From: Xanthobacter flavus
Lineage (GTDB): Bacteria > Pseudomonadota > Alphaproteobacteria > Rhizobiales > Xanthobacteraceae
Reading direction: 5' to 3'
DNA: 64,000 nucleotides
Assembly (NCBI RefSeq): GCF_017875275.1
Contig: NZ_JAGGML010000001.1
Coordinates: 124,001-188,000, forward strand
The notes beneath the pieces were generated by a model. The model made no database searches, had not been told where the DNA came from, and worked only from the letters and a program-made list of their open reading frames with translations. Numbering within the stretch: the first letter of the stretch is position 1; the number at the start of each line of letters is the position of its first letter. Below are positions 7,688-41,161 of this stretch, in pieces. Position numbers and translations under genes: made by a program.

Positions 7688-8319
7688 CAGGGCCTCGCAG
7701 AGCCGTAGGCGTTGGGCCAGCGGCCACGCCGGCTGTTCACCCAGGAGGACGTCGGGAGCGGCTGTGAGCCGAGGTTGCCGGCATCGAGCGCCAGGGCCTC
7801 CACCAGGGCCTTGTCGGCCGCCTTCTCCAGCGTGACCGCCGCCTCTTTGCTGCCGATGGCCTTGGGCGCGATCTTGGCGGCGAGCATCAGGCTCATGGCG
7901 TGCGCGAAGTGGGCGGACCACTGCCCGACGTCCCCGCCGAACTGGTCGTGGCAGGACACATAGCGCACGTAGAGCGGGCTGATGTTGGCGTACCAGTGCC
8001 CGCCCTGATCGAGGAAGGGCACGAGGCCGGCCCGCATCTGCTCACTGGCGGCGATCACGTGCGTGCGCTTCCAGTCGCAGGGCTTGGAGAAGGCGTGGTC
8101 ATAGCCGAAAGCGGGGGTGAACCCCTCATCCGGGTCGATCATCACGGCGCGCAGGGCGAAGGACCACGAGCCGGCCTCCAGGCACCGGTCCCGCACGTCG
8201 CACCAGTTCCGGTCGAGGAGGCGCTTCGCCTCCCCGCCCCCGGTGTCCTGCATGTCGGCGAGCGTGCGCTGGCCCAGCTCCGTCAAAGCGGAGTTGTAGA
8301 TCGACAGGACCGAGGCCAT
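7687..8319 (-). CDS. Tail tubular protein A-like (T7 gp11 position)
   Basis: 210 residues, close to the 196 of T7 gp11. The opening (MASVLSIYNSALTELGQ) and the later WYANISPLYVRYVS and MSLMLAAKIAPKAIGSKEAA segments are characteristic of podoviral tail tubular A or adaptor proteins, which ring the portal exit and carry the nozzle. Start ATG 8319 is just 1 nt after the upstream stop, and the gene ends overlapping the nozzle gene start. Confidence 0.75.
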   Translation of the reverse strand: MASVLSIYNSALTELGQRTLADMQDTGGGEAKRLLDRNWCDVRDRCLEAGSWSFALRAVMIDPDEGFTPAFGYDHAFSKPCDWKRTHVIAASEQMRAGLVPFLDQGGHWYANISPLYVRYVSCHDQFGGDVGQWSAHFAHAMSLMLAAKIAPKAIGSKEAAVTLEKAADKALVEALALDAGNLGSQPLPTSSWVNSRRGRWPNAYGSARP

Positions 8320-20128: not shown

Positions 20129-20899
20129 TCAGCCGGCCTTGCGCTGCATTTCCTCGATGACCGAGTTGCAGGCGTCCAGCAGTGGGTCCCGGTGGCGGGT
20201 GCCGGGCCGGTAGAAGCCGGCCACGATGTTCAGGACGCGCTTGATCTCCGCGCTCACAACTCGGTGCTGCGGCGCGCCGCGACTGGTCAGCTCGTGGGGA
20301 CCCGCACCGCCGATCACCACGGACACGAGCACGGTCCAATCACGACGGCCCAAGCGAGCCTCAACAAAACGAAGCCGGTCCTGCGCCTCGACACGCGCGA
20401 GATGCTCGCGGCTCCCATGGCCGCCACCGGACACGGTCGGTTCGAATCCACGGCACCGGAGCGAGCGATAGGCCGATTCCCAATCCCGCGCGAAATCCTG
20501 CGCCGCGCGCTGCTGCTGCACCTCCAGGCCGCGGAGAGATACACCCTTCACTTCGACCTTCCGGAGAAGGCCATCGCCGTCCAGGACCGTCTCCTGCTTC
20601 GGCCGGGCCTTCGCCCGAGCCTTCCGCTCCACCTTGCTCGGCTTGGTGGGCCTGGTGTGGCCGGTGAGGTTAAGCGGGTCGCTGGCCTTGCGCTTGGTCG
20701 TCTCGGCGCCCTCCACCTTGGTGCGCAGGGCGACGAACGCCCGCGCCCACTCGGTATCCCGGCCGGCGTCCCAGTCCTGGGCGCCGTACATCATGGCGCG
20801 CGCGTGCTCCCGCTCCAGGTCATGGGCGAGCGAGCGCTCATAGCCCTTGCGGGCGCGGGCGATGCGGGCGGCGGCGATGAGCTTCTCTGCGCGGGTCAT
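20129..20899 (-). CDS. Unknown phage protein, possible late regulator
   Basis: 256 residues. The N-terminal 60 residues are basic helices. A Lys/Arg/Pro-rich linker spans about 75-105. The C-terminal domain (EHLARVEAQDRLRFVEARLG to IKRVLNIVAGFYRPG) is helical and resembles in outline the DUF6456-type domains found in alphaproteobacterial phages. It overlaps the helicase gene stop by 4 nt and is the last gene before the late region, where antiterminators or late activators usually sit. That role is speculation; no DNA-binding motif is certain. Confidence 0.5.
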   Translation of the reverse strand: MTRAEKLIAAARIARARKGYERSLAHDLEREHARAMMYGAQDWDAGRDTEWARAFVALRTKVEGAETTKRKASDPLNLTGHTRPTKPSKVERKARAKARPKQETVLDGDGLLRKVEVKGVSLRGLEVQQQRAAQDFARDWESAYRSLRCRGFEPTVSGGGHGSREHLARVEAQDRLRFVEARLGRRDWTVLVSVVIGGAGPHELTSRGAPQHRVVSAEIKRVLNIVAGFYRPGTRHRDPLLDACNSVIEEMQRKAG

Positions 20900-22251
20900 G
20901 TCAGCTCCTCGAAGCGGGTGAGCTTGCCAATCCATTTCAGGGTTCGCTCCTCAAATGGCTTGCGACGTCTGTGCTTGAGCGAGATCACCTGGGCCTTGCC
21001 GGCGCAGAGGGCGAGCTGGGTCTCCCAGTTGCCGTGTTTCTCGGCGCCGGCGTCCTTGTGCGGCCGGTTCTGGCGCAGCCAGCTCTCCTTGCGCCAGACG
21101 GCGAGCACGATGTCCCCGTCCCGCTCGATAGATGGCGCGTCGGCATCGTTGATCTGCGGCGTAGGATCGTCCCGCCGCTGGGCGCCGCGGGTGCGCTGGG
21201 CGAGCACCAGCACGGGCACCATGAGATCCTTCGCTAGGACCTTGAGGTCGCCGGTGATCTCCGCCAGGCGCTCGAAGCGGTCCTTATGCCGGGCCTCGGA
21301 CTTGATCTTGTCGAGCTGGTCGATGATGAGCATGCCCAGCCCGCGGGTGCGCTTCAGGGCGATGCAGTGGGCCCTGATCTGGCGGATTGTCATGCGGGAA
21401 TCGTCCAGCACCATCATGTCCGGGCCGGCGAGCCACTGCTGAGCCTGCAGCATGGCATCGCGGTCGGCGAAGCTGAACGCCCCCTCCTGAATGTCTCCCA
21501 CCGTGATCCCGGAGGCGGCGGCAAGCTCGCGCGCGGCCACCTGCTCCGCGGTCATTTCCATCTGGCAGAGGAGGACCGGGCGGGACATGGCCACGTGCAT
21601 CCCCACCTGCATGGCGAGCGCCGACTTGCCGTCGCCCTGCGAGCCGACGAGGAAGACGAGATCGCCGGCGAGCATGCGGCCGACGATTTCGTCGAGGCTG
21701 GGAATGCCCGTGCCGAAGCCGGGCATCACGTCCCGCTCATTGGCCATCCGGGAGGCGCCGGCAACGCTCCGGGCGAGGTCGCCGATCCGCTGGGGGCGCT
21801 TGGGGCTCGCCACCTGCATGACGTCCAGGATGGCCGCGCTCGCGTCGGCGGCGAGGTCCATCGCGCCCTTCTCTCCGGCCTTCACCCCCTTCAGCACGCT
21901 CTCGGCGAGGTGGATGAGCTGCCGGCGCGCCGCCGCCTCGGCGATGTCAGGCACGAAGTCCTCGACCGAGCCCACGTCCTCCGCGTCCTTCAGAAGCACC
22001 GCGAGGTAGCTCATCATGGAGCGGCCCTCCTCGTCCTCCGCTGGCAGGCGGGAGGCGACGAGGGACAGGGACAGCCGTCCCTCCGTGCAGATGTCCCTGA
22101 TGACGGAGAACACCTGCTGGTGGAGCGGGTGGAAGAACTGATCCGCGCGCAGCCGATCCGCGACGCCCCAGAAAGCGGTGTCGCTCTTCAGGCAGGCGCC
22201 CAAGACCGCGCGTTCGGCGGCTAGGTTGTGGGGGAGCTCACGCCGAGACAT
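20896..22251 (-). CDS. Replicative DNA helicase, DnaB family
   Basis: 451 residues. An N-terminal DnaB helical domain (NLAAERAVLGACL) is followed by a RecA-type core: Walker A GSQGDGKS (203-210), Walker B GMLIIDQLD, an Arg/Gln-rich region with VLVLAQRTRGAQRRDD, and a final DNA-binding basic tail. It unwinds the phage origin with the primase encoded 1.4 kb upstream in the same direction. It reads from ATG 22251, with a divergent restriction gene upstream. Confidence 0.9.
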   Translation of the reverse strand: MSRRELPHNLAAERAVLGACLKSDTAFWGVADRLRADQFFHPLHQQVFSVIRDICTEGRLSLSLVASRLPAEDEEGRSMMSYLAVLLKDAEDVGSVEDFVPDIAEAAARRQLIHLAESVLKGVKAGEKGAMDLAADASAAILDVMQVASPKRPQRIGDLARSVAGASRMANERDVMPGFGTGIPSLDEIVGRMLAGDLVFLVGSQGDGKSALAMQVGMHVAMSRPVLLCQMEMTAEQVAARELAAASGITVGDIQEGAFSFADRDAMLQAQQWLAGPDMMVLDDSRMTIRQIRAHCIALKRTRGLGMLIIDQLDKIKSEARHKDRFERLAEITGDLKVLAKDLMVPVLVLAQRTRGAQRRDDPTPQINDADAPSIERDGDIVLAVWRKESWLRQNRPHKDAGAEKHGNWETQLALCAGKAQVISLKHRRRKPFEERTLKWIGKLTRFEELT

Positions 22252-22396: not shown

Positions 22397-23665
22397 ATGT
22401 CCGCAGATCAAGGGCTTCGGTCCCTCATCATCAGCATCAAAGAGGCCGACGCACTCGCCACGCAACTCGGATGCAATCCGCGCCGAGTAGAAACCATGCT
22501 CCAGCGCCGCGGTGGCGATTACGTAAAGCTTATGACCGACATCATCAGGAACCCTGAGTTGACATCGGCGATGGTCAAACTCGTGAGGGCTGGCCATTGG
22601 GAAATGACGTTTGAGGCGATCGCCCTGAAATTTTCCAACACCGGCCTGTTTGATAAGGCAACCCTCGAAGTTGCGATATGGAAGCTCCGGCAAGTTGGCT
22701 GTGATGTGACCGATCGCGGTGCTCTCAATGAACTCCCCGTTGATCCTAGTACGAACGAGGAGCATGTGGCCCCCGACTGCGCGCTGGTTGCGCTCAAGGG
22801 CGACGATGGCTACCCCAAGCTGTCCGGAACGCCAGTCGGGAGAAGATGCCAAATGACTTGGGGCTTCGAGCGCGGCCGCACCTACAATCGACGGCGCGAT
22901 ATTCACGCGCGCTTCGGCGGCCAGCAGCAAGGCGGCATCATCACTCCGGCCGAGCATCCGGTGGTCATCATCATCACCGGCGAAGAAGGCGGCCAGCACG
23001 GTTACACCGACAACATCCGGGAGGACGGCGTCTTCGAATATTTTGGCGAAGGGCAGATCGGAGACATGCAGCTGATCCGCGGAAACCGCGCGATTGCGGA
23101 GCATTCGAAGGAGGGGAAGGCCCTCCTCATGTTTCGAAAGGTCGCGCGAGACGGAAGCCTGCGCTTCGAAGGCGAATGGATCTGCGAGGATGTGCTGAGG
23201 CGCCCCGGACCAGATAGGGACGGCGCGGTCCGCACCGCTTTGGTCTTTGAGCTCCGCTCCATCGAGACCGTCTCGGAGGTGGAGGAAGACGCCGCGCCTG
23301 CAAGCGATACGACTTCCATCGAAGAGCTCAGGCTTGAAGCAATTGCGGCAGCTAGCATCGGCCGAGTCGTCGGCACGAGCCCGCGGAACGTCTTCGCCCG
23401 CAGCCGCGCCGTACATTCCTATGTGCTTCGCCGCGCGGGTGGACACTGCGAGGGGTGCGGAAGCCCGGCCCCCTTTTTGAGAGCCGACGGTAGCCCGTAC
23501 CTCGAACCTCATCATATCCGCCGCCTCAGTGACGGTGGGCCCGACGACATTCGCTTTGTCATTGCCCTGTGCCCAAACTGCCACCGGCGTGTTCACGTAG
23601 GCGCGGACGGCCAGAGCTATAACGAGCAGCTTCGGGCCAGGATGGGCAGCATAGAGCCATCCTGA
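22397..23665 (+). CDS. SRA-like plus HNH endonuclease (McrA/ScoMcrA-type modification-dependent restriction)
   Basis: 422 residues. Residues 1-130 are helical and unrecognised. Residues 155-270 resemble the SRA-type modified-base reader of ScoMcrA-like enzymes (WGFERGRTYNRRRDIH, FGGQQQGGI, GYTDNIREDG, LLMFRKV). Residues 345-405 are an HNH/zinc module: C351-x2-C354, HH372-373, C392-x2-C395-H396 and H400. It should cut DNA carrying modified cytosine or another modification. It runs against the replication genes and is more AT-rich in part, so it is probably defensive cargo acquired by the phage. A hairpin covers its stop codon. Confidence 0.75.
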   Translation: MSADQGLRSLIISIKEADALATQLGCNPRRVETMLQRRGGDYVKLMTDIIRNPELTSAMVKLVRAGHWEMTFEAIALKFSNTGLFDKATLEVAIWKLRQVGCDVTDRGALNELPVDPSTNEEHVAPDCALVALKGDDGYPKLSGTPVGRRCQMTWGFERGRTYNRRRDIHARFGGQQQGGIITPAEHPVVIIITGEEGGQHGYTDNIREDGVFEYFGEGQIGDMQLIRGNRAIAEHSKEGKALLMFRKVARDGSLRFEGEWICEDVLRRPGPDRDGAVRTALVFELRSIETVSEVEEDAAPASDTTSIEELRLEAIAAASIGRVVGTSPRNVFARSRAVHSYVLRRAGGHCEGCGSPAPFLRADGSPYLEPHHIRRLSDGGPDDIRFVIALCPNCHRRVHVGADGQSYNEQLRARMGSIEPS

Positions 23666-23691: not shown

Positions 23692-24786
23692 TCAGGCCGC
23701 CCCCCTCGCCGCGTTCCACACGTCCAGGAAATCGCTGTTGAACGGCGGTTGGTTGATCACCGTCGGGATGCCGGCCGGCGCGAGCCGGTCCCGTAGCTTC
23801 CGCGCCGCGGCGATGCCCGGCGCCGTGCCGATGGAGCCGTCATCCAGCCTGCGCGGAAGGTCGCCGTCGGGATAGAGCCGCAGGCGCTGCACCTCGATGG
23901 GCGGCTCAAAGGTCATCATTCCGGAGGTGGAGAGCATCGCCCACACCGGGTGCCGGTAGCCCTCAAGGCTCCAGGCGGCCAGTGCGGTCTCCAGCCCCTC
24001 CCCGCCTCCGATCATCTCGGCGAGCCCGCCAATGCGCACCGCACCGCCGCGGGCCGGGCCGAAGCCCACCTTCGGGTTCTCGACCGGCGCCTTCCCGGCG
24101 GTCTCGGGGTTCAGGAAGATGCGCCACACCGCGATGGTGTTGCCGGCCATGTCCTGCACCCGGGCGACGAGGCAAGGGAACACGCGGCCATCGCGCACCT
24201 TGCGGCCGTCCTGCCACTCCGCTTCGAGCTCGTACTCGAGCCCGGTGTGGAAGCCGAGCACGTCCGGCCAGCCCACAGGCGGCGTGGGGATGCCGCGTCC
24301 GTGCAGGTAGCGCTCTGCCAGCGTGCCGGCGATGGGCATGCACTGGGCCCACATCTCGCCGGCGGTGTCGGCGCGGCGGGCGCGGCGCTGCTCTTCCTTC
24401 CGCACCGCCTGCGCCCGGCGCTCCTCGCTCTCACGGCGCGCGCGAGCGGCGGCCTCGTGGTCTACCTGCCCCCGAATGCCGAGAAAGGCCCGGGCCTCCT
24501 CGAAGGCGCGACGGAAGTCGTCGCGGCCGGGCTCGCCCACCGTGCCGTTCAGGAGGTAGGCGAGCAGCTTCACCGGGCCGCCGCCGATCTGCTGGGAGAA
24601 GCGGTAGAACTGGCCCCGGTGCTGGCCCTGAAGGTTCACCTGGAAGCTGCCCAGCTTCTTCGGGCCCTTCGATGTCAGGTAGGCCTTGCCGCGGTGCTCG
24701 ATCCAGCCGGGCGCATAGGTGTCGAGCACTTGCTCGATCTGCTTCGTCAGCTCGCCGGCGATGTGGTCGGAGTCGTCTTCCCTCAT
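23692..24786 (-). CDS. Phage DNA primase / Toprim protein
   Basis: 364 residues. The N-terminus (YLTSKGPKKLGSFQVNLQGQHRGQFYRFS) is a primase-like nucleic-acid-binding fold, followed by an Arg/Glu coiled coil (110-140). Next come AERYLHGRGIP and a Toprim-type half with GGGEGLETALAAW and LRLYPDGD, the acidic metal sites. It lacks a CHC2 zinc finger at the N-terminus. It makes primers for phage replication with DnaB. The start overlaps the wHTH gene stop (ATGA). Confidence 0.8.
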   Translation of the reverse strand: MREDDSDHIAGELTKQIEQVLDTYAPGWIEHRGKAYLTSKGPKKLGSFQVNLQGQHRGQFYRFSQQIGGGPVKLLAYLLNGTVGEPGRDDFRRAFEEARAFLGIRGQVDHEAAARARRESEERRAQAVRKEEQRRARRADTAGEMWAQCMPIAGTLAERYLHGRGIPTPPVGWPDVLGFHTGLEYELEAEWQDGRKVRDGRVFPCLVARVQDMAGNTIAVWRIFLNPETAGKAPVENPKVGFGPARGGAVRIGGLAEMIGGGEGLETALAAWSLEGYRHPVWAMLSTSGMMTFEPPIEVQRLRLYPDGDLPRRLDDGSIGTAPGIAAARKLRDRLAPAGIPTVINQPPFNSDFLDVWNAARGAA

Positions 24787-27856: not shown

Positions 27857-28272
27857 GTGCTGCTCCCAAGACTTTTGGGACATCTCCCAATTTCTCCGTG
27901 CTTGGATGGGCCAAGCGAGGAGATGGACACAGGAGATGGATCGGTGAGGACGGGAGCGACACGGCGCGGTGCTTCCAGGCGGGCGCCGGGGTCGCGGGAC
28001 GCGGGAACAGGATCGGGCGTGAAGCGACGGGCCGCCGCCATGGCGACCTTGGCGACGAGCATCCACACGGTGGACTTACGCGGATGGCCAGGAATGACGA
28101 AGCCGCCGGCTCGCGCCGGAAGCCCGGTCACATCGCTGGCTGTCTCCAAGGCGGCAACCTGATAATCGGAGACTTCATCGAGGCCCGAGATGTTGGTGAC
28201 CGTCGCTTCTGCGATTGTGCGGGCCCGGCTCTTGTCGCCGCTGGGCCAGAGCTCGATCCGAATGGCGAGCAT
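27853..28272 (-). CDS. Phage protein, unknown
   Basis: 139 residues. The N-terminal 60 residues are beta-rich (LAIRIELWPSGDKSRARTIAEATVTNISGLDEVSDYQV) and then comes VIPGHPRKSTVWMLVAKVAMAA, a hydrophobic helix. The tail is Pro/Ser-rich. Similar small proteins appear beside early regulators in related prophages, but I recognise no function. It overlaps the genes on both sides. Confidence 0.55.
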   Translation of the reverse strand: MLAIRIELWPSGDKSRARTIAEATVTNISGLDEVSDYQVAALETASDVTGLPARAGGFVIPGHPRKSTVWMLVAKVAMAAARRFTPDPVPASRDPGARLEAPRRVAPVLTDPSPVSISSLGPSKHGEIGRCPKSLGSST

Positions 28273-28514
28273 CACGCCACCTCGGAGGTGGATGCGCGGA
28301 CCTTGCGAGTAGCGCGGCGTGCTGCTTGGAGGCTTTCCCAGGTCACACCCTGGATGCTCCTCTCGCTGGCGGCTTTTATGAGCCGATCCCAATATTCAAT
28401 CGGGATCGACCCTCTGGCTTTCATGGTCCGGGCGTGGCTGTCGGGAATCTCCAGGATTGCGGAGATCACGGACACGCCGCCAAAATCGGAGAAGATCTGA
28501 TCAAAGCCGCTCAT
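28272..28514 (-). CDS. Cro-like HTH protein
   Basis: 80 residues. Residues 1-50 form a Cro/Carph-type helix-turn-helix (FGGVSVISAILEIPDSHARTMKARGSIP with YWDRLIKAA after it), the GSIP-x-x-x-W element being usual for such phage regulators. A basic tail follows. It is the first gene leftward from the operator array and diverges from the CI-like repressor, so it is the expected lytic counterpart. No Shine-Dalgarno sequence is present and the predicted start of transcription lies about 2 nt before the ATG. Confidence 0.75.
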   Translation of the reverse strand: MSGFDQIFSDFGGVSVISAILEIPDSHARTMKARGSIPIEYWDRLIKAASERSIQGVTWESLQAARRATRKVRASTSEVA

Positions 28515-28522
28515 GACATCTA

Positions 28523-28551
28523 TCGCTACATGGCGTGGCGATATCAGTCAA
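28523..28551 (-). promoter_or_regulatory. Leftward early promoter (PR-like)
   Basis: On the minus strand TTGACT, 17 nt, TAGCGA. Its surroundings nearly repeat the rightward promoter at 31560-31588 (CTGTATTGAC, then ATATCGC, then GTAGCG in both). Operator 28524-28540 covers its spacer and -10, and operator 28549-28565 covers its -35, so bound repressor would block it. Confidence 0.65.
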
Positions 28552-28589
28552 TACAGCATGTGGCGCTTTAGGCGCTACATTCTGAGGCG
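28524..28589. promoter_or_regulatory. Three 17-bp repressor operators between cI-like and cro-like genes
   Basis: Three imperfect inverted repeats of the form CGCTAC-N5-GTRGCG: 28524-28540 (CGCTACATGGCGTGGCG), 28549-28565 (CAATACAGCATGTGGCG) and 28573-28589 (CGCTACATTCTGAGGCG). Centres are 25 and 24 bp apart, as in a lambda-like OR region. The third site ends immediately before the repressor ATG at 28590, where binding would allow autorepression. Confidence 0.7.
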
Positions 28590-29309
28590 ATGGAAAAGGA
28601 TCCGGTGAAAATCGCTCAGGGCAAGCGGCTGGCAGAAGCCAGGAAACTCGCGGGCTATCGCTCCGCGCGAGAGGCGGCGCTGGAGAACAACTGGCCGGAA
28701 AGCTCATACCGCGCCCACGAGGGGGGCACCAGAACCATCGGCCAGAACGACGCCGAGCGGTATGCAAAGCGATTCGGGAACACCACCGCTGAACATATCC
28801 TTTTCGGTTCAGGAGGCATCGACGCGGCAGCACCACCGGCGAAGTCCGCTATGCCCGAGCCGAATGCAACCTACCCGTTGCCAGTGACCTTCTCGCATAA
28901 GAAGCTGCCGGTTTATGGCCACGCGGCAGGCGGCATGGACGACGACGGCAAGTTCATTCTCAACGGGCAGAAAATCGCTGACGTGCTCTGCCCGCCCGCC
29001 CTCGAAAATGTCGTGGGCGCCTATGCGGTTTATCACACGGGCGATTCGATGCTCCCCCGGTATGAGCCGGGAGACCTACTCACCATCCACCCCGGGCTGC
29101 CCGTCAAGAAGGGCGACTATGTCTTGGTTCAGATCCGCGGCGAGGACGGTGACCCGCCCTATGGCTACGTGAAGCGGTTCGTCACCAAGAACGCCAAGGA
29201 GCTGGTCCTCGAGCAGCTAAACCCGCCGGATGGCCATAGCCACACCCTCCGATTCCCGGCGGATCGCGTCCTGACGGTGCACCGGATTTTCTCATCTGGG
29301 ATTGGTTGA
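28590..29309 (+). CDS. CI-like S24 repressor
   Basis: 239 residues. Residues 8-70 form an HTH_3-like DNA-binding domain (KRLAEARKLAGYRSAREAALENNWPESSYR reads as the helix pair). Residues 105-235 are an S24/LexA-type self-cleavage domain with Ser153 in GDSMLPRYEPGD, Lys195 in GYVKRF, and a candidate Ala113-Gly114 cleavage bond. It should hold the prophage silent and be inactivated by RecA on DNA damage. Divergent from the Cro-like gene, with an operator right before its ATG. Confidence 0.88.
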   Translation: MEKDPVKIAQGKRLAEARKLAGYRSAREAALENNWPESSYRAHEGGTRTIGQNDAERYAKRFGNTTAEHILFGSGGIDAAAPPAKSAMPEPNATYPLPVTFSHKKLPVYGHAAGGMDDDGKFILNGQKIADVLCPPALENVVGAYAVYHTGDSMLPRYEPGDLLTIHPGLPVKKGDYVLVQIRGEDGDPPYGYVKRFVTKNAKELVLEQLNPPDGHSHTLRFPADRVLTVHRIFSSGIG

Positions 29310-29403
29310 CTTCTCCCCACATTCCACAACCGCAGATTCGATTCGACTCGCGCTACAGCTTCGGCAAAAATGGGAACATAACGTGAACTTATTGGGGCGC
29401 AGC

Positions 29404-29646
29404 ATGAGCGGCGAGCCGGGAGAAGTGTTGCTATCAAAGGTTTTCTCAACGCTGGTTTTGTGCCGCGACTGCGGCCGCGGAGGCGTCTTGTTCGCCCGTG
29501 AGCTGGGTCGATGGCAGCTTCCCCTGGACGCAACCACAACCCATCTGCGGGACCGCCTGTTCTGCCGCTCGTGCCGCGACAAGGGACTGCCCGGCAAAAG
29601 GATGACCGTGGAGGCGTTCCCTGCCCCCGAAGGAGCTGTGGCATGA
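29404..29646 (+). CDS. Zinc-ribbon-like small protein, unknown
   Basis: 80 residues with two Cys pairs, CRDC and CRSC, about 40 residues apart, enough for one zinc ribbon. ATG 29404 has GGGG 8 nt before it; in-frame GTG 29383 is an alternative. It follows the repressor in the same direction and may be expressed in the lysogen. No known family. Confidence 0.55.
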   Translation: MSGEPGEVLLSKVFSTLVLCRDCGRGGVLFARELGRWQLPLDATTTHLRDRLFCRSCRDKGLPGKRMTVEAFPAPEGAVA

Positions 29647-29903
29647 CCGAACCGACAACCATTCACGTCCTTCAAGCGTTCATCGAGGTGGACGGCTTTG
29701 CCTGCGCTGAGGAGCCGATCCAGTGCGTATCCGCCTCGGACGCCCGCGCGAAAGCCCGCGCGCTGAAGGACAAGAAGGCGGGTATCATCGCGTGGTCCCG
29801 AACTTCCGCCGATCCCTCTCTGGGAGAGTGGAGCGCTCCGGTGGTTCTCGCGAGATATGGCAAGATTCCAGAGGAATTTGAGACCGGAGGAGGCGTGGAC
29901 TGA
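29643..29903 (+). CDS. Small phage protein, unknown
   Basis: 86 residues: a strand-helix pattern (HVLQAFIEVDGFACAEEPIQC, ASDARAKARALKDKKAGIIAWSRTS) that may be a small alpha/beta fold. The start overlaps the preceding stop (ATGA), so the two are one transcript with the repressor. Function not recognisable. Confidence 0.5.
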   Translation: MTEPTTIHVLQAFIEVDGFACAEEPIQCVSASDARAKARALKDKKAGIIAWSRTSADPSLGEWSAPVVLARYGKIPEEFETGGGVD

Positions 29904-29922
29904 CCACTGAAACGAGAATTAA

Positions 29923-30558
29923 CTACTGCTGGAATGAATTGGATTTTTCATCCCAGACCTTGATTCCAATTTTGATCGCTTCGGGATTCGACACGAAATT
30001 CATGTCCGATGCGGAAGCGCGGAACATCACCCTTAGAAATTCGAGATCGGTCCCTATCGTTTTCAGATAGTCGGCGACATCGAGAACGGTCTTTTGGGTG
30101 TCGCGCTCCAGCTCCCTCATGTCGGCCGCGGTGTACGCTTTGCCATCTGGGATTTGGCTTTCCCAAGAATGGAAGCCCAAAAGGCTGGTGGACGACTTCG
30201 TCCGCCAAGGCTTTCCCGCGCCATCCTGCCCTGCCAGGAACGCCAGGGCGCAAGCGCTTAGGCAAATCGCCCCGTTTCCCTCAATGACGGTTCGCACTCC
30301 GAGTTCGTGGAATGCAAGGCCCAGGCGCATTCCTTCGTAGAGCCGGCCACCCGGGGAATCCAGATAGATGGCCACCCGCTTTCTGGTCGGGACCGAAGCG
30401 AGATATTTCCGAAAGCGGGCCGCATCGCCCGGCTCAATCTTCCCTCTGGCCATCACGGCCGCCAGCGTCGCGCTATCGTTCTCGTGCCGGGAAAACTCCA
30501 GCGCAAGGGCGGAAGTGGTGCCAACAATTAATGCTACGATTGCCGCAACGATCCGCAT
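29923..30558 (-). CDS. Exported ClpP-like protein
   Basis: 211 residues. A signal peptide with a likely cut after ALA near residue 19 is followed by a ClpP/crotonase-like fold: strand YLDSPGGRLYEGMRLG (67-71 is DSPGG), then GAICLSACALAFLAG with candidate nucleophile Ser101, then LLGFHSW with a possible catalytic His. It resembles predicted periplasmic ClpP-like proteins rather than cytosolic ClpP. It is alone on the minus strand next to the immunity genes, so it is probably a cargo gene expressed in the lysogen. Substrate unknown. Confidence 0.65.
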   Translation of the reverse strand: MRIVAAIVALIVGTTSALALEFSRHENDSATLAAVMARGKIEPGDAARFRKYLASVPTRKRVAIYLDSPGGRLYEGMRLGLAFHELGVRTVIEGNGAICLSACALAFLAGQDGAGKPWRTKSSTSLLGFHSWESQIPDGKAYTAADMRELERDTQKTVLDVADYLKTIGTDLEFLRVMFRASASDMNFVSNPEAIKIGIKVWDEKSNSFQQ

Positions 30559-30612
30559 TGTCCCGCGCCAATTGGAGACCCGTATACTACCGAACCGCGA
30601 CAGGGGGAATCA

Positions 30613-30990
30613 ATGCACTCAAGGCTTGGACTGAACGAAGGGGATCTGACCTACCTCATCAATAAGGCTTCTGAAATCGGACAACTTCATGGACAATTAG
30701 AACAGCGCCGCAAGTATGTTAATTTCCAATGGGCGGCGGGAGTGATTTTTCTATTACTTGGGATTGCAGACATTATTTACCCGGCCCAGAAGTGCGGGCC
30801 GGTGCGAGACGGGATGATAACCTACGGCACCCTCTGCGGCACCCTCGGACTATTCTTTTTGGCGTTCGCTTTTTCCAATCATGAAACGCTAAAGTTTCTA
30901 CGGGAAAAAATCCGTGACACCACTGCGGTGTTTGAAAGCGAACGCCGTCACGCCATCAAATCTATCTCTGGTTCAACGACTGAGAAGTGA
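30613..30990 (+). CDS. Two-TM membrane protein, possible superinfection-exclusion type
   Basis: 125 residues. Two hydrophobic helices at about 40-58 (WAAGVIFLLLGIADII) and 70-88 (LCGTLGLFFLAFAF) are joined by a short loop with Cys residues, with charged helices before and after. The coding region is clearly more AT-rich than the phage genes. Small membrane proteins beside the repressor often alter superinfection, but this is inference. No family recognised. Confidence 0.55.
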   Translation: MHSRLGLNEGDLTYLINKASEIGQLHGQLEQRRKYVNFQWAAGVIFLLLGIADIIYPAQKCGPVRDGMITYGTLCGTLGLFFLAFAFSNHETLKFLREKIRDTTAVFESERRHAIKSISGSTTEK

Positions 30991-31545
30991 ACTATTGGTA
31001 CCTCGCGCCCGCATATCTCATTCCATAAGTCCTGCAACAATAACAAAATATTGAATCTGTTTAAGGTATATCACTCTATAAACCCTATCTTATTATCGAC
31101 TTTACGCTCCAACCTCCCAACCATACCAGCTCGTTAGAACATGCAGCGTCTCCCGGCGCGTGCGCGGCGCTGCGGCCTTCCGCCGGCGGGCCATCGTGGG
31201 CCGGCCGGACGTCGCACGAACCAGGTTCCGCTGCATGCTGGCCGAGGGGAGGCTTTGGACACCCCCACGTCTCGCATGCGAGCTGCGGCCCTATCGGGCG
31301 CTTCGCCGCAGCCTGCCGCCGTATTCGTCCGCAGTGCCCTGCGTCGGGGTCCGCCGCTTTGGTTCGGCGTGGACTGTGACCCGCTCCCTCTTTCACCCGG
31401 CGCCTCGGTAATCCGCCAGACGATTCCCCGCCTACTCAGCCGGGACCCTTCTCAGGGAATCGTTGCCACCGCTCGTCTCTGCCCGCTCCTCGCACGGCAC
31501 GTCGAGCCATCGACACAGGCGAACATACGTCTCGACACAAAAAAA
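30991..31545. other. Non-coding stretch between cargo genes and rightward operon
   Basis: About 555 bases. The first 140 are AT-rich (around 31000-31130) and the rest is GC-rich. Open frames exist on both strands (for example 31160-31411 plus, 31085-31396 minus), but their composition is that of chance frames rich in Arg, Pro and Ala, without ribosome sites. I see no gene I can support. It may hold a remnant or an untranslated RNA. Confidence 0.4.
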
Positions 31546-31588
31546 CGCTACACCCTGTATTGACGAATATCGCTACACGGCGTAGCGT
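31546..31588 (+). promoter_or_regulatory. Rightward early promoter with two repressor operators (PL-like)
   Basis: Promoter TTGACG (31560-31565), 17 nt, TAGCGT (31583-31588). Operators CGCTACACCCTGTATTG (31546-31562) and CGCTACACGGCGTAGCG (31571-31587, a perfect repeat with 5-nt centre) overlap the -35 and the spacer/-10; their centres are 25 bp apart. The same sites are found at the repressor gene 3 kb away, so the repressor should control both operons. Confidence 0.7.
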
Positions 31589-31615
31589 CACTACATCGAA
31601 AGGGGAGCGGACACG

Positions 31616-31972
31616 ATGACCAGCCAGACCGATGTTGCCGAGGCGAAACCGGCACCCGGCCCATACGAGGTCGGAGAGGACGACGAACTCAACGGGTGCC
31701 CTTTCATTCCGATCATCGCGGCTGACCGCGGCTGCATCGCGGAGGTGGTCCCTGATTATTCCGAAGACCGGCCACATCTCGGCAAACGCGAACGAGCGAC
31801 AGCTCTCCTCCTCGTCGCCGCGCCGGAGCTGCTGAGGGAAGTCATCCAATGCTCCGTGGAGCTGCGCGAGGCTGCCAAGCTCATTCGCGACCGCTTACCG
31901 GGCGTTGCCGGCATCTATGACGCCGCTGCCCAACGCGCGGAAATGACCGCCGCCAAAGCGAAGGGGCGCTGA
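31616..31972 (+). CDS. First gene of the rightward operon, unknown
   Basis: 118 residues. The head GPYEVGEDDELNG and the helix ATALLLVAAPELLREVIQCSVELREAAKLI give the layout of small phage proteins that precede recombination genes (a beta hairpin then a long helix). AGGGGAG lies about 10 nt before ATG 31616. Function unknown. Confidence 0.6.
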   Translation: MTSQTDVAEAKPAPGPYEVGEDDELNGCPFIPIIAADRGCIAEVVPDYSEDRPHLGKRERATALLLVAAPELLREVIQCSVELREAAKLIRDRLPGVAGIYDAAAQRAEMTAAKAKGR

Positions 31973-31973
31973 G

Positions 31974-32366
31974 ATGCGGTCCCACCTCGCCCCCCGCCTT
32001 GAGATCGACCAGGAAGCCGTCGCGGCGCTGGCCAACGAGCAGTACCTCGCTTGGCGCGCCTCCTGGCAGAAGCGCTCTCCCGAGTGCCGCCCGAGCGACA
32101 AGGATCTGCTCCGTCAGGCCGGCACCTGGGCGCGTGCGACCGCTGAGGCGGCCCAATCCCTTGCCGTGGAGCGCGACCGCCGCGCCCGGCTCACCGAGGC
32201 GCAGCGTGAGATCGAGGATCTCCTCGACTGGCGCGCCCGGATCAGCAACCCACTCACCTGCCCGGACAGCCTCTTTCAGGCCTGTGGCAGCGAGCGCGTG
32301 AACACCGAACTGGCGCGGGTTGATGCGCGCCTTTCCGCCCTTGCCGCCGACAGGAGCGCCGCATGA
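31974..32366 (+). CDS. Phage helical protein, unknown
   Basis: 130 residues, almost entirely helical, with a coiled-coil-like centre (RATAEAAQSLAVERDRRARL) and a second helix at the C-terminus. It begins 1 nt after the previous stop. No recognised domain. Confidence 0.55.
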   Translation: MRSHLAPRLEIDQEAVAALANEQYLAWRASWQKRSPECRPSDKDLLRQAGTWARATAEAAQSLAVERDRRARLTEAQREIEDLLDWRARISNPLTCPDSLFQACGSERVNTELARVDARLSALAADRSAA

Positions 32367-35513: not shown

Positions 35514-36440
35514 ATGACCGCTCAGTTCCCCATCCACCCTCTCCTTCCGTTCGAGCGCGTGAAGGAGCCCGGCGTCTATGCCCTCGACGTCGAGCGCTAC
35601 CACGGCGACTGCACCGACGGTCCCGGTGTGTCCTCCTCTGGCCTGCGCACGATCGAGCTGCGCAGCCCAGCCCACTATTGGGCCACCAGCTATCTGAACC
35701 CGCAGCGGATCGAGCAGGAGCAGTCCGACGCCCTCGACTTCGGGCAAGCGGCGCACACCCTGCTCTTGGGCGAGGCCGGCTTCCGCCAGCACTTCGTGGT
35801 GCGGCCGGACGAGTACCCGGACTACCGCACCAAGGCTGCGAGGGAATGGCGCGACTTCCAGCGGGAGGCGGGCAAGACTGTCCTGACGCCCGACCAGGTC
35901 CAGCACATCAAGGGGATCGCGGCCTCGCTGGCGCGCCACCCGCTCGTGCGCCAGGGCCTCCTTCAGGGCGAGGTCGAGCGCTCCATCATCTACCGCGACC
36001 CCGTCACCGGCATCTGGCTGAAGATCCGGCCGGACGTTCTTCCGGTGAGCGACGGGGTGGTGGTGGACCTCAAGACGGCCGCCGACGCCGCGCCGCGGGC
36101 CATGGAGCGTGCCATCCTTGAACGCGGCTATGACATGGCCGGCGCCCTCACCGGCATGGGCCTGAAGGCCGTGTGCAACATCGACATGACCGCCTTCGTG
36201 CTGGTGTGCGTCGAGAAGGTGCCGCCCTACGCGGTGAGCATCGTGGAGGTGGACGCAAGCTGGATCGGCTACGCCCGCCGGCGGGTGCGCCGCGCCATCG
36301 ACACCTTCGCGCGCTGCATGGAGAGCGGCGAATGGCCGGCCTTCGAGGGCGAGGCCAAGCTGTTCATTCCCGAATGGCTGCGCAAGCGCCTCGATGCCGA
36401 GACCGACGTGGGCCTCCTCCCGCAGGAGGATGCGGCGTGA
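35514..36440 (+). CDS. RecE-like exodeoxyribonuclease (PD-D/ExK)
   Basis: 308 residues. VSSSGLRTIELRSPAHYW near the N-terminus, then DFGQAAHTLLL, and the catalytic core WLKIRPDVLPVSDGVVVDLKTAADA (PD...D-x-K), followed by a helix with YDMAGALTGM. This is the layout of the RecE/exonuclease VIII C-terminal nuclease domain (DUF3799 type). It resects double-strand ends to give 3' tails for RecT. The stop overlaps the GTG start of recT. Confidence 0.85.
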   Translation: MTAQFPIHPLLPFERVKEPGVYALDVERYHGDCTDGPGVSSSGLRTIELRSPAHYWATSYLNPQRIEQEQSDALDFGQAAHTLLLGEAGFRQHFVVRPDEYPDYRTKAAREWRDFQREAGKTVLTPDQVQHIKGIAASLARHPLVRQGLLQGEVERSIIYRDPVTGIWLKIRPDVLPVSDGVVVDLKTAADAAPRAMERAILERGYDMAGALTGMGLKAVCNIDMTAFVLVCVEKVPPYAVSIVEVDASWIGYARRRVRRAIDTFARCMESGEWPAFEGEAKLFIPEWLRKRLDAETDVGLLPQEDAA

Positions 36441-37615
36441 ACCAGGTCGCCACCATCGGCCCCTTCGAAGCTTTCAGGGCGCAGGTGCTGCCGCCGGAGC
36501 GGGCGAGCGGGCTGTTCGCCTCCCTCCCCGCCCACGTGAAGCCCGAGCGCTTCGAGCGCAACCTCGCCATCGCGCTGCGCCAGCATCCGAACCTCCTGAA
36601 GTGCGACCCCGAGGCCGTGTTCAACGAGGTGTCGAAGGCGGCGGCGCTGGGGCTGCTGCTGGATCCCCAGCTCGGCGAGGCCTACCTCATCACCGGCTGG
36701 AACAACCAGGAACGCCGCCTCGCGCCCCAGCTTCGCGTGGGCTATCGCGGCCTCATCAAGCTCGGCCGCCAGTCCGGCGAGATCGCAGCCTCCTATGCCC
36801 ACGAGGTGTGCGAGCGCGACGAGTTCGAGTGCGTGCTGGGCGACAACAAGCGCCTGCACCACAAACCGAACCTCGCCCAGGACCGAGGCGAGGCCTACGC
36901 CTACTACGCCGTGGTGAAACTGGCGGGCGGCGAAACCGACTTCGAGGTGATGTCCATCCGGGAGGTCCACCGCATCCGCGACCGATCTGACGGATGGAAA
37001 GCCTTCCAGGAGAAGAAGATCAAGTCCACGCCGTGGGCCACCGACGAAGGCGAGATGGCGAAGAAGACCGTCATCCGCCGGCTCATGAAGCGCATGCCCG
37101 CGTCCCCCGAGCTCGCCGACGCACTGCGCATCGAAGACGAAGCCGATTATCGCGACTTCCGCGACGTGACGCCGGAGCGCCCGACGCTCGCGTCCCGTCT
37201 GAAAGCGGGCACGACCGCGCCCGGCTTTTCGCTTGAGCACGTCGAGCGTGAGACGGCCGGCGAGCAGCGGGATGAAGAACAAGGCGGTGAAGAGCAGGTG
37301 CTCGACACGCCCACCGAGACCTCGCCGGTGTCGCCCGGCGAGCAGGAGGACAGGCCGGGTGCGTCCGCCCCCCAACCCCAGCCCGGCCTGTCCTCCGCAC
37401 AGTTCACGGCCTACCACCAAGCGCTCGCTCGCGCGGTGCAGCCCGCCAGCCTCAAAGGGCTGCACGAAGCCTTCGTGGGCAAAGCCGTTGGAGCCCCGCC
37501 CGATGAAGACACCGCCATCCTCCGGGAGATTTACGCACTGCACGTGCGCCGCTTGAAGGGCGAGATCTCCGCCGAGGACGTCACCCTCCAGGTCAGGGAG
37601 CTCGCAGGAGCATGA
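36437..37615 (+). CDS. recT: RecT single-strand annealing protein
   Basis: 392 residues from GTG 36437. The annealing core is residues about 1-250: LAIALRQHPNLLKCDPEAVFNEVSKAAALGLLLDP, GEAYLITGW, LRVGYRGLIKLGRQSG, YAYYAVVKLAGG and WATDEGEMAKKTVIRRLMK are RecT hallmarks. Residues 260-330 are an acidic Pro/Glu linker, followed by a small C-terminal helical domain that may bind SSB or RecE. It anneals phage ends after RecE resection. Overlaps recE by GTGA and the next exonuclease by ATGA. Confidence 0.9.
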   Translation: MNQVATIGPFEAFRAQVLPPERASGLFASLPAHVKPERFERNLAIALRQHPNLLKCDPEAVFNEVSKAAALGLLLDPQLGEAYLITGWNNQERRLAPQLRVGYRGLIKLGRQSGEIAASYAHEVCERDEFECVLGDNKRLHHKPNLAQDRGEAYAYYAVVKLAGGETDFEVMSIREVHRIRDRSDGWKAFQEKKIKSTPWATDEGEMAKKTVIRRLMKRMPASPELADALRIEDEADYRDFRDVTPERPTLASRLKAGTTAPGFSLEHVERETAGEQRDEEQGGEEQVLDTPTETSPVSPGEQEDRPGASAPQPQPGLSSAQFTAYHQALARAVQPASLKGLHEAFVGKAVGAPPDEDTAILREIYALHVRRLKGEISAEDVTLQVRELAGA

Positions 37616-39411: not shown

Positions 39412-39557
39412 TGGCGCGCCGCAGGCAAGAGCTGCTGCCCCCGCTATCCCCAGCTCGCCCGCCCCATCCGGACGTGATCGCGCTCGCCGAGGCCATTGCC
39501 CGGATGATGGCCCGGCGGGATCATGAGCGGGAAAATGGCGTGGGGAACGAAAAGTGA
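39411..39557 (+). CDS. 48-residue protein before the recombinase
   Basis: Starts at ATG 39411 directly after the previous stop and overlaps the recombinase GTG start by 3 nt. A Pro-rich head (LLPPLSPARPPHPD) is followed by a helix (VIALAEAIARMMARRDHERE). Short proteins of this layout occur just before serine recombinases in alphaproteobacterial elements. A recombination directionality role is possible but unproven. Confidence 0.5.
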   Translation: MARRRQELLPPLSPARPPHPDVIALAEAIARMMARRDHERENGVGNEK

Positions 39558-41161
39558 ACCAGCAGCGGCGCGCGGGCGTCTATGCCCGCTTCTCATCCGA
39601 CAAACAGGACGGGCGCTCCATCGAGGATCAGGCCGCCCTATGCGCCGCCTATGCCGAGCGGCAGGGCTGGGTGGTCGCTGAAGTCTATTCGGGCTTCGCC
39701 GTGTCGGGCGCCAGCGTGCATGGCCGATTTGCCTTCGAGAGGCTGGTGCAGGATGCCCGGCGCGGGGCCTTCGACGTCATCCTCACCGAGGACCTTGATC
39801 GCCTTTCCCGCAATCAGGCGGACATCGCCGCCCTCTACGAGCGCATGACCTTCGCCGGAGTGGAAATCTGGACCGTCGCCGACGGCCGGGTGTCGGAGAT
39901 GCACGTGGGCCTCAAGGGCACCATGTCAGCCCTCTTCCTTCGGAACCTCGCCTTGAAGACCCACCGCGGCCTCCAAGGGCGGATCCGCGAAGGCAAGAGC
40001 GCCGGCGGCCGTTGCTTCGGCTATCGGGTGGCGGGGACGGGCGTGCGCGAGATCCACGACGGCGAGGCCGAGGTGGTCCGCCGCATCTTCACGGAATTCG
40101 CCGACGGCAGCTCCCCGCGCGAGATCGTCGCCCGCCTGAATGCGGAGGGCGTGACCGGCCCCCGAGGGGGGCAGTGGAACGCCTCCACCATCAACGGCTC
40201 TCGGGAGCGCGCGAACGGCATCATTCGCAACGAGCTCTACGCCGGCCGGCTGGTCTGGAATCGGCAGCGGTTCGTGAAGGATCCCGATACAGGCAAGCGG
40301 GTGTCGCGCCCGAACGCCGCCGGCGCGCGGCATGTGGTTGAGTTGCCTGAGCTGCGGATCGTCCCGCCCGAGCTGTGGGACCAGGTGCAGCGCCGGCTCA
40401 CCGGCCGCGGGCCCAACGCACCCATGCAGCGCAAGCCCCGCCACTTGCTGTCCGGCCTCTGCCGATGCGGCGCCTGCGGCGGCTCCTTCATCGTGGCCGC
40501 TCCGAACAAGCTGGGCTGCTCCACGCGGCGCGAGAAGGGAACCTGCGACAACCGCCGGCTCATCTCCCTCAAGATGCTCGAGCAGCGGATCCTCGGCGCC
40601 CTGCAGGAGCACCTCCTCCACCCCGAGGTGCTGGAGCGGGTGACAGCGGCCTATCTCGCCGAGCGCCGACGGCTCCGCGCCAACTCAACCAGGGCGGAAG
40701 CGCAGCGCCTGAAGCGGCTGGGCGAGATCGAGCGCGAGACTACGCGAATTGTGGACACCATCGCGAAGACAGACCTTCCGGACCCCACCGCCCTGGTGGC
40801 GCGCCTCAATGCCCTCACGGCAGAGGCGAAGGCGCTGCAGGGGAAGCCGGAGGGGGCCGAGCCGGAGGTGATCGAGTTCCACCCGGCCATCGTCAGCCGC
40901 TATTCGGAAATTGTGCGCAAGCTGCGGGCCGAGATCGAAAGCCGGCCGGCCGAGGAACGGGCACCCGTCATAGAGATGGCACGCCGGCTCATCGAGCGCG
41001 TCGTGATCTTTCCAAACGATGATGTGCAGGGAAGGGACCTGGAACTACACGGCACCCTCGCCGCGCTGTTAGGCGCGACAGAGGGAGACCGAGATAGTAT
41101 GGGTCGAATGGTTGCGGGGGCACGCAACCATCTCAAATTGCTATTTCGAGCCGCAGCATAG
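39554..41161 (+). CDS. Large serine recombinase (phage integrase)
   Basis: 535 residues from GTG 39554. The resolvase domain (1-150) has the nucleophile Ser14 in YARFSSDKQ and the motif TEDLDRLSRNQAD. A recombinase domain follows (about 170-300, FADGSSPREIVARLNAEGV). A zinc ribbon lies at about 305-335 (CRCGACGG, then CSTRREKGTCDN), and a coiled coil near 370-420. It integrates and, with a directionality factor, excises the prophage. Being the last gene on this side it marks the right end, with attR expected in the next hundred bases. Confidence 0.92.
   Translation: MNQQRRAGVYARFSSDKQDGRSIEDQAALCAAYAERQGWVVAEVYSGFAVSGASVHGRFAFERLVQDARRGAFDVILTEDLDRLSRNQADIAALYERMTFAGVEIWTVADGRVSEMHVGLKGTMSALFLRNLALKTHRGLQGRIREGKSAGGRCFGYRVAGTGVREIHDGEAEVVRRIFTEFADGSSPREIVARLNAEGVTGPRGGQWNASTINGSRERANGIIRNELYAGRLVWNRQRFVKDPDTGKRVSRPNAAGARHVVELPELRIVPPELWDQVQRRLTGRGPNAPMQRKPRHLLSGLCRCGACGGSFIVAAPNKLGCSTRREKGTCDNRRLISLKMLEQRILGALQEHLLHPEVLERVTAAYLAERRRLRANSTRAEAQRLKRLGEIERETTRIVDTIAKTDLPDPTALVARLNALTAEAKALQGKPEGAEPEVIEFHPAIVSRYSEIVRKLRAEIESRPAEERAPVIEMARRLIERVVIFPNDDVQGRDLELHGTLAALLGATEGDRDSMGRMVAGARNHLKLLFRAAA

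Follow-up and report, generated by a model that had tools for sequence, protein, structure and literature searches.

Genes and sites of the probable immunity region

The window analyzed here, a stretch of 64,000 nucleotides from Xanthobacter flavus, carries a prophage whose two early promoters, the leftward PR and the rightward PL, are each overlapped by 17-bp palindromes that we describe as the putative operators of a phage immunity region. Three of them precede the gene of a CI-like repressor (28590..29309, plus strand, 239 residues), namely O1 (OR1-like, 28524..28540), O2 (OR2-like, 28549..28565), and O3 (OR3-like, 28573..28589), the last of which abuts the repressor ATG. The other two, the OL2-like (31546..31562) and OL1-like (31571..31587) sites, lie 3 kb away; none of the five is assigned a strand. 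PR (TTGACT-N17-TAGCGA; 28523..28551, minus strand) has its −35 element at 28551-28546 and its −10 element at 28528-28523, and PL (TTGACG-N17-TAGCGT; 31560..31588, plus strand) has the corresponding elements at 31560-31565 and 31583-31588, with a spacer of 17 in both. O1 spans the spacer and −10 of PR, a spacing conserved in related loci, and O2 overlaps its −35; OL1 spans the spacer and −10 of PL, whose −35 is in part formed by the right half of OL2. Centre-to-centre distances are 25 and 24 bp for O1-O2-O3 and 25 bp for the OL pair. Relative to CGCTAC-N5-GTAGCG, the sites carry 1, 3, 2, 2, and 0 mismatches in coordinate order, only the one at 31571 being a perfect palindrome. Neither PR nor PL was picked up by a generic sigma-70 scan of 28000-32000, which returned a single unrelated site at chance level.

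The repressor combines a helix-turn-helix with an S24 peptidase domain (Pfam PF00717). The Pfam search of the repressor reported no helix-turn-helix, which rests on the structure model; in this model (mean predicted local distance difference test score, pLDDT, 81.7), five helices at the N-terminus are followed by a beta C-terminal domain. One Ser and one Lys, which we take to be the S24 catalytic pair, are invariant across 14 aligned repressors. In a Foldseek search of the model the first match is the lambda repressor (3bdn, E 2.8e-6). Pfam, alignment, and fold together describe a lambda-like helix-turn-helix joined to an S24-type C-terminal domain, for which cleavage is predicted.

On the other side of the shared operators, and divergent from the repressor gene, lies the gene of a Cro-like protein (28272..28514, minus strand, 80 residues) that starts 8 nt past the PR −10 and is predicted to be leaderless. 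A carph-isopro domain was detected below the cut-off. The first solved structure in a profile search was 1rzs (E 0.035), the Cro of phage P22, with another Cro, 3bd1, at 0.41; in the fold search the top rank went to 3bd1 (E 0.029), which is the Cro of the Xylella prophage element Xfaso 1. Each of these matches is weak alone, and together they suggest a Cro-like protein.

The leftward arm includes a DnaB-like helicase (20896..22251, minus strand; Pfam DnaB_C 4.8e-45) and a DUF7146/Toprim primase-like protein (23692..24786, minus strand). The rightward arm opens with a gene that has a leader and a purine-rich ribosome-binding site but matches neither Pfam nor NCBIfam (31616..31972, plus strand), and continues on the same strand with a PD-(D/E)XK nuclease-like protein (DUF3799, 35514..36440), a RecT family protein (36173..37615 as the open reading frame, ORF, was called, the true start probably being later), and, at its end, a large serine recombinase that is likely the integrase (39554..41161). 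A sequence-only reading of this stretch had placed five 17-bp sites here, spaced by 24–25 bp within each cluster, with two TTGAC(T/G)-N17-TAGCG(A/T) promoters overlapped by two operators each, between a leftward replication operon and a rightward recombination/integration operon; all of these features were found as described.

Specificity of the operator motif

Taken alone, the 17-bp motif is uninformative. At up to three mismatches, the bare 17-mer gives 40 matches in the window versus 35.2 in shuffled sequences, which is not significant, and its exact form, CGCYAC-N5-GTRGCG, occurs at five places in the 5.35-Mb genome, two of them in this prophage. Around 3166537, one of the three other exact places, a partner site was looked for and none was found. 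The lack of excess over shuffles and the three outside places are what would be seen if the motif were a chance palindrome or the site of a host regulator. That explanation is hardly credible, however, once the operator is considered in its promoter context, and given that the layout recurs in other phages sharing the helix-turn-helix (see below). The composite pattern GTRTTGAC-N6-CGCYAC-N5-GTRGCG, which joins promoter and operator, has two exact matches and one 3-mismatch match in the window, where 0.02 are expected at up to three mismatches. Within the whole genome the exact composites are confined to this prophage (two matches, with none for the reversed-pattern control).

A position weight matrix was built from 12 repressor-side sites of four phages, that is, the window phage, a Bosea phage (L014), L016, and L025, L numbers being our designations for related loci. 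In the window, the five sites are the five top scores (16.9–19.8), the next being 10.2, and the scores in 40 Markov-simulated windows reached 16.5 at most. Three of the five belonged to the training set, whereas the two PL sites did not, and both OL1 and OL2 were therefore found by a matrix not trained on them; no third OL site in the window exceeded the threshold. Likewise, no far site of the other phages was used in training, and the matrix recovers one pair spaced by 25 bp in each of L014, L075, and L076; L075 and L076 cover L016 and L025 with more flanking sequence.

Recurrence in related phages

A search of IMG/VR for the composite returned 24 stretches, which lie on 22 contigs. Of these contigs, 18 carry a repressor with the same N-terminal helix-turn-helix; among the remaining contigs, L088 and L097 have a divergent helix-turn-helix, L084 has an unrelated one, and L106 has no repressor in the stretch. 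The C-termini of repressors that share the helix-turn-helix vary widely, those of L083 and L090 being short (116 residues in total). Of 27 loci entered into the comparison, four had no repressor over the threshold (L084, L088, L097, and L106), and L101 left no space upstream; L077, where the script misplaced the sites although three are visible, and L107, which lacks O3, were omitted from later counts, leaving 20. Counts over 21 loci comprise these 20 regions and Bradyrhizobium phage ppBeUSDA76-2 (L115), while counts over 19 regions omit L010 and L104, near copies of the window phage.

The operators and their layout recur in 19 distinct repressor-side regions, including one in a Bosea genome and that of ppBeUSDA76-2, where the same 3+2 layout was read by eye. 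A second operator set at another early promoter beyond cI is present in 16 of the 20 oriented regions, at 0.46–4.1 kb. With spacings of 23–26 and 34–36 allowed, this PL pair is spaced by 25 in 15 regions and by 35 in one; the four regions without a pair are cut short, offering at most 2.1 kb beyond O1 to search. Because the distances range so widely, no phasing argument for looping between the clusters is possible. In the region with the wider pair (L091:3972-4023), the 35 bp instead of 25 amount to one helical turn more. A Cro-like ORF follows PR in all 21 repressor-side regions, starting 6–10 nt past the PR −10, and 20 of these proteins were aligned.

The exact composite was found in 4 of 296 genomes of the family sample, our own genome included, and in our own genome only in the samples of the order (1/357) and the class (1/385). 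The exact pattern is restrictive, with L014 and L075 matching at PL only, and these counts are therefore lower bounds. Given its recurrence in the 19 distinct regions, the operator is not specific to this phage, contrary to what the sequence-only reading had supposed; of the whole-genome scan that it proposed, the outcome is that the composite is not frequent elsewhere in the genome, while the bare 17-mer has its five exact places.

Operator sequence and the helix-turn-helix

A prophage of Xanthobacter tagetidis (L013) amounts to a natural domain swap. Its repressor is 81% identical to that of the window phage over residues 88-239, the S24 part, but has a different helix-turn-helix, and the matrix finds in L013 a single CGCTAC-type match above threshold and no pair. 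Instead, a TCAAGCA-type motif is repeated both upstream of the repressor (5665-5714) and in the PL region (8195-8244); we regard these repeats as candidate operators. Immediately before PL, the two phages share 91% identity over 396 bp, and the likeness stops near the operators. The reverse case is seen in L025/L076, whose repressor matched only over the helix-turn-helix (65%, residues 6-84) and whose operators are kept. A distant relative (L047/L078) has three CATTAC-type sites spaced by 25 and 24, and L048 and L049 have two sites each at 25; the matrix, which is not suited to those half-sites, found no second pair in L078, L079, L080, or L081.

These comparisons bear on which protein reads the sites. 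Cro and CI share operators in lambda, and all 21 repressor-side regions have a Cro-like ORF after PR, which would also suit a scheme in which Cro is the main reader and the repressor binds elsewhere. We consider this quite improbable, because the sites largely track the repressor helix-turn-helix and X. tagetidis differs in both clusters at once. Cro may be an additional reader, since the X. tagetidis cro-side gene also looks different by eye. The link between operator and repressor helix-turn-helix is strong but not strict, in view of the exceptions L084 and L088/L097 considered below.

A probable lambda-like immunity system

We conclude, with a probability of roughly 0.88, that the region is a lambda-like two-region immunity system of a temperate phage, in which one CI-like repressor, five operators, and two early promoters work together. 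A dimeric repressor (28590-29309) would bind the five palindromes, probably with cooperativity; at O1 and O2 it would close PR and with it cro and the replication genes, and at the OL pair it would close PL and thus the recombination genes and the integrase. On DNA damage, RecA would trigger cleavage of the repressor by its S24 domain, both arms would open, and Cro would then bind here too. The proposal that one CI-like repressor closes both operons, made already in the sequence-only reading, gains from comparison (the two-promoter layout, the S24 domain, and the lambda fold match), with binding as a prediction.

Several observations weigh against this conclusion or limit it. Genome-wide, the composite at up to three mismatches gives 8 matches versus 4 in the reversed control, so that only its exact matches stand out. 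The fold match to the lambda repressor has a whole-chain template modelling score (TM) of only 0.35, for a model with a predicted TM (pTM) of 0.53, and single DNA-binding domains match the model better, for example, 7t8i with a target TM of 0.82. Correspondence between operator and helix-turn-helix is imperfect in both directions: L046-L049 show other half-sites at 51–69% helix-turn-helix identity, and L050 largely keeps CGCTAC at 47%; L084 has a CGCTAC-type promoter-operator (L084:1594-1610) beside an unrelated helix-turn-helix; and L088/L097 keep sites despite a divergent one. The latter two, like L107, lack a recognizable O3. Finally, the repressors of L083, L090, and L115 (116 residues) and of L091 (175 residues) seem to have no S24 domain, judging from their length and alignment, so that cleavage would not be general to the group. 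These short repressors are encoded at L083:2256-2603, L090:6804-7151, L115:3995-4342, and L091:2556-3080; of these loci, L091 has the wider PL pair and the other three the 3+2 layout, and cooperativity or induction must differ there.

Proposed repressor promoter and predicted leaderless transcripts

A repressor promoter, PRM (ACAGCA-N17-TACATT; 28553..28581, plus strand), is proposed from conservation to lie inside O2 and O3, with O2 covering its −35, O3 covering its −10, and its predicted start coinciding with the repressor ATG. Position 9 is T in 18 of 19 O3 sites of the distinct regions, compared to three O1 and no O2 sites, which places a TANNNT −10 of PRM in O3. Similarly, GC stands at the centre of OR2 in 19/19 cases and of OL2 in 0/18 (Fisher 6e-11), and this central GC of OR2 is read as the PRM −35 in O2; because the sequences are related, p-values from these comparisons are only indicative. 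The repressor start lies 7–10 nt past the PRM −10 in 21/21 loci. As the cro start lies 6–10 nt past its −10 in the same loci, both mRNAs are predicted to be leaderless, and they most likely begin at their AUG. There is a precedent in phage PY54, as passages of the report on its immB region show: both cI and cro mRNAs were found by rapid amplification of cDNA ends to be leaderless (PMC4488713). PY54 differs, according to the same passages, in that its Cro binds a single site, OR3, apparently without repressing its own synthesis (PMC4488713).

The O2 centre lies 33 bp ahead of the cI ATG versus 42 bp in lambda; the proposed PRM, under O2 and O3, sits nearer to cI by roughly one helical turn than its lambda counterpart. 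From this position of O2, over the proposed −35, repression of PRM is expected rather than activation of the lambda kind, and the repressor most likely limits its own synthesis. The three-operator order and the spacing of 24–25 bp do resemble lambda, and the proposed PRM −35 is poor (2–3 of 6 consensus bases), as in an activator-dependent promoter, both of which would suit a repressor that acts at O2 to activate its own promoter, in the manner of lambda CI at OR2. We find such activation unlikely, given the distance of 33 bp and the cover of the proposed −35 by O2, as well as the T in 18/19 O3 sites and the constant 7–10 nt gap in 21/21 loci that back the −10 placement. The need for positive autoregulation in a lambda-like switch could be tested clearly with this geometry.

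An inverted repeat in the PL leader

In many relatives, the start of the PL transcript appears able to pair with itself. We compared the first 12 nt after the PL −10 with the next 28-nt segment, against shuffled segments, in 18 loci. Pairing exceeded shuffles at p<0.05 in 14/18 loci (Fisher 4e-14), or, with one locus per related group, gave 4e-11 over 14 loci; the same test at PR, as a control, gave 0.64 overall, with 3/18 singly below 0.05. The paired arm holds a string resembling a ribosome-binding site, by a loose pattern, in 15/18 loci, and 11/18 have both the pairing and the string. Folding of the whole leader is less clear (z <= −2 in 9/20), the start codon being misplaced or not found in several loci. 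L083 shows no PL pairing in this test (p 0.51), and in the window phage the pairing is marginal (p 0.048) and touches the start codon region rather than the ribosome-binding site.

Because PL transcription is predicted to begin within the 5' arm, the complete stem would be present only in longer transcripts. In many relatives the inverted repeat could therefore silence read-through RNA via the ribosome-binding site of the first gene: RNA running in from the cI operon would stay untranslated, while true PL RNA would be translated. Passages on phage T4 gene e describe control of this kind, in which the ribosome-binding site of long transcripts is sequestered in a helix (PMC3014915). That gene, in contrast, encodes lysozyme and does not belong to a lysogeny switch, and no homology is claimed. 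A tentative joint picture, to which we give rather less than even odds, is of a switch that works by repression alone, with PRM wholly inside O2/O3, leaderless cI and cro, and a read-through lock at PL. Its hairpin part fits many relatives and hardly the window phage, and is best taken as a prediction for the group.

Comparison with known systems

Phage lambda (NC_001416) shares with the window phage the divergent cro/cI genes, three 17-bp operators between them (spaced by 23–24 bp in lambda), and additional operators at a second early promoter on the far side of cI, and its repressor is the first fold match. The operator sequence is different, two OL sites are seen here versus three, the gap between O3 and the cI ATG is 0 bp rather than 10, that between O1 and the cro ATG is 9 bp rather than 26, and O2 here covers the proposed PRM −35. 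The term lambda-like, used in the sequence-only reading, hence suits the two-region layout and the divergent cro/cI genes, but not the operator position about 10 bp closer to cI, where PRM activation of the lambda type is not expected.

The C repressor of Rhizobium phage 16-3 (DQ500118) has a related S24 half (43.6% over residues 88-237), and its record annotates OR1 and OR2 upstream and OL1 and OL2 downstream of the repressor gene, as well as a Pc −10 that ends 6 nt ahead of the c start. By the same annotation, however, 16-3 has two OR sites, operators of 12–14 bp, and another spacing. The full-length query matches 16-3 over residues 88-237 only, and a 75-residue N-terminal query gave no 16-3 match at E 1e-3; a homologous DNA-binding domain with the same operators, which would place the two phages in one family, was not found. 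A 2025 paper on phiLM21-like Sinorhizobium prophages reports that these contain no operators identical to the lambda or 16-3 ones, and does not settle which the true operators are (PMC12429752). No description of the present operator system was met in the literature searched, which does not by itself establish its absence from print. Since repressors can here be matched to operators from sequence, and each phage offers two predicted clusters, immunity groups should be assignable from genomes.

Neighboring sequences

The 396 bp upstream of PL that resemble X. tagetidis L013 form a non-coding block (31113-31508) that ends just before the PL operators; the repressor C-half is 79% identical in that comparison. 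The block has one match in its own genome and no plasmid match. As a candidate structured RNA it was rejected, being no more stable than shuffles (z 0.78), and Rfam gave no match on 28200-31700. Two genes without a Pfam match (29923-30558 and 30613-30990) lie between the repressor and PL, where lambda has rexAB; by eye, the first, on the minus strand, may encode a secreted protein and the second a small membrane protein. Within the leftward operon, a plus-strand ORF (22397-23665) whose C-terminus is HNH-like by eye runs against the direction of the operon.

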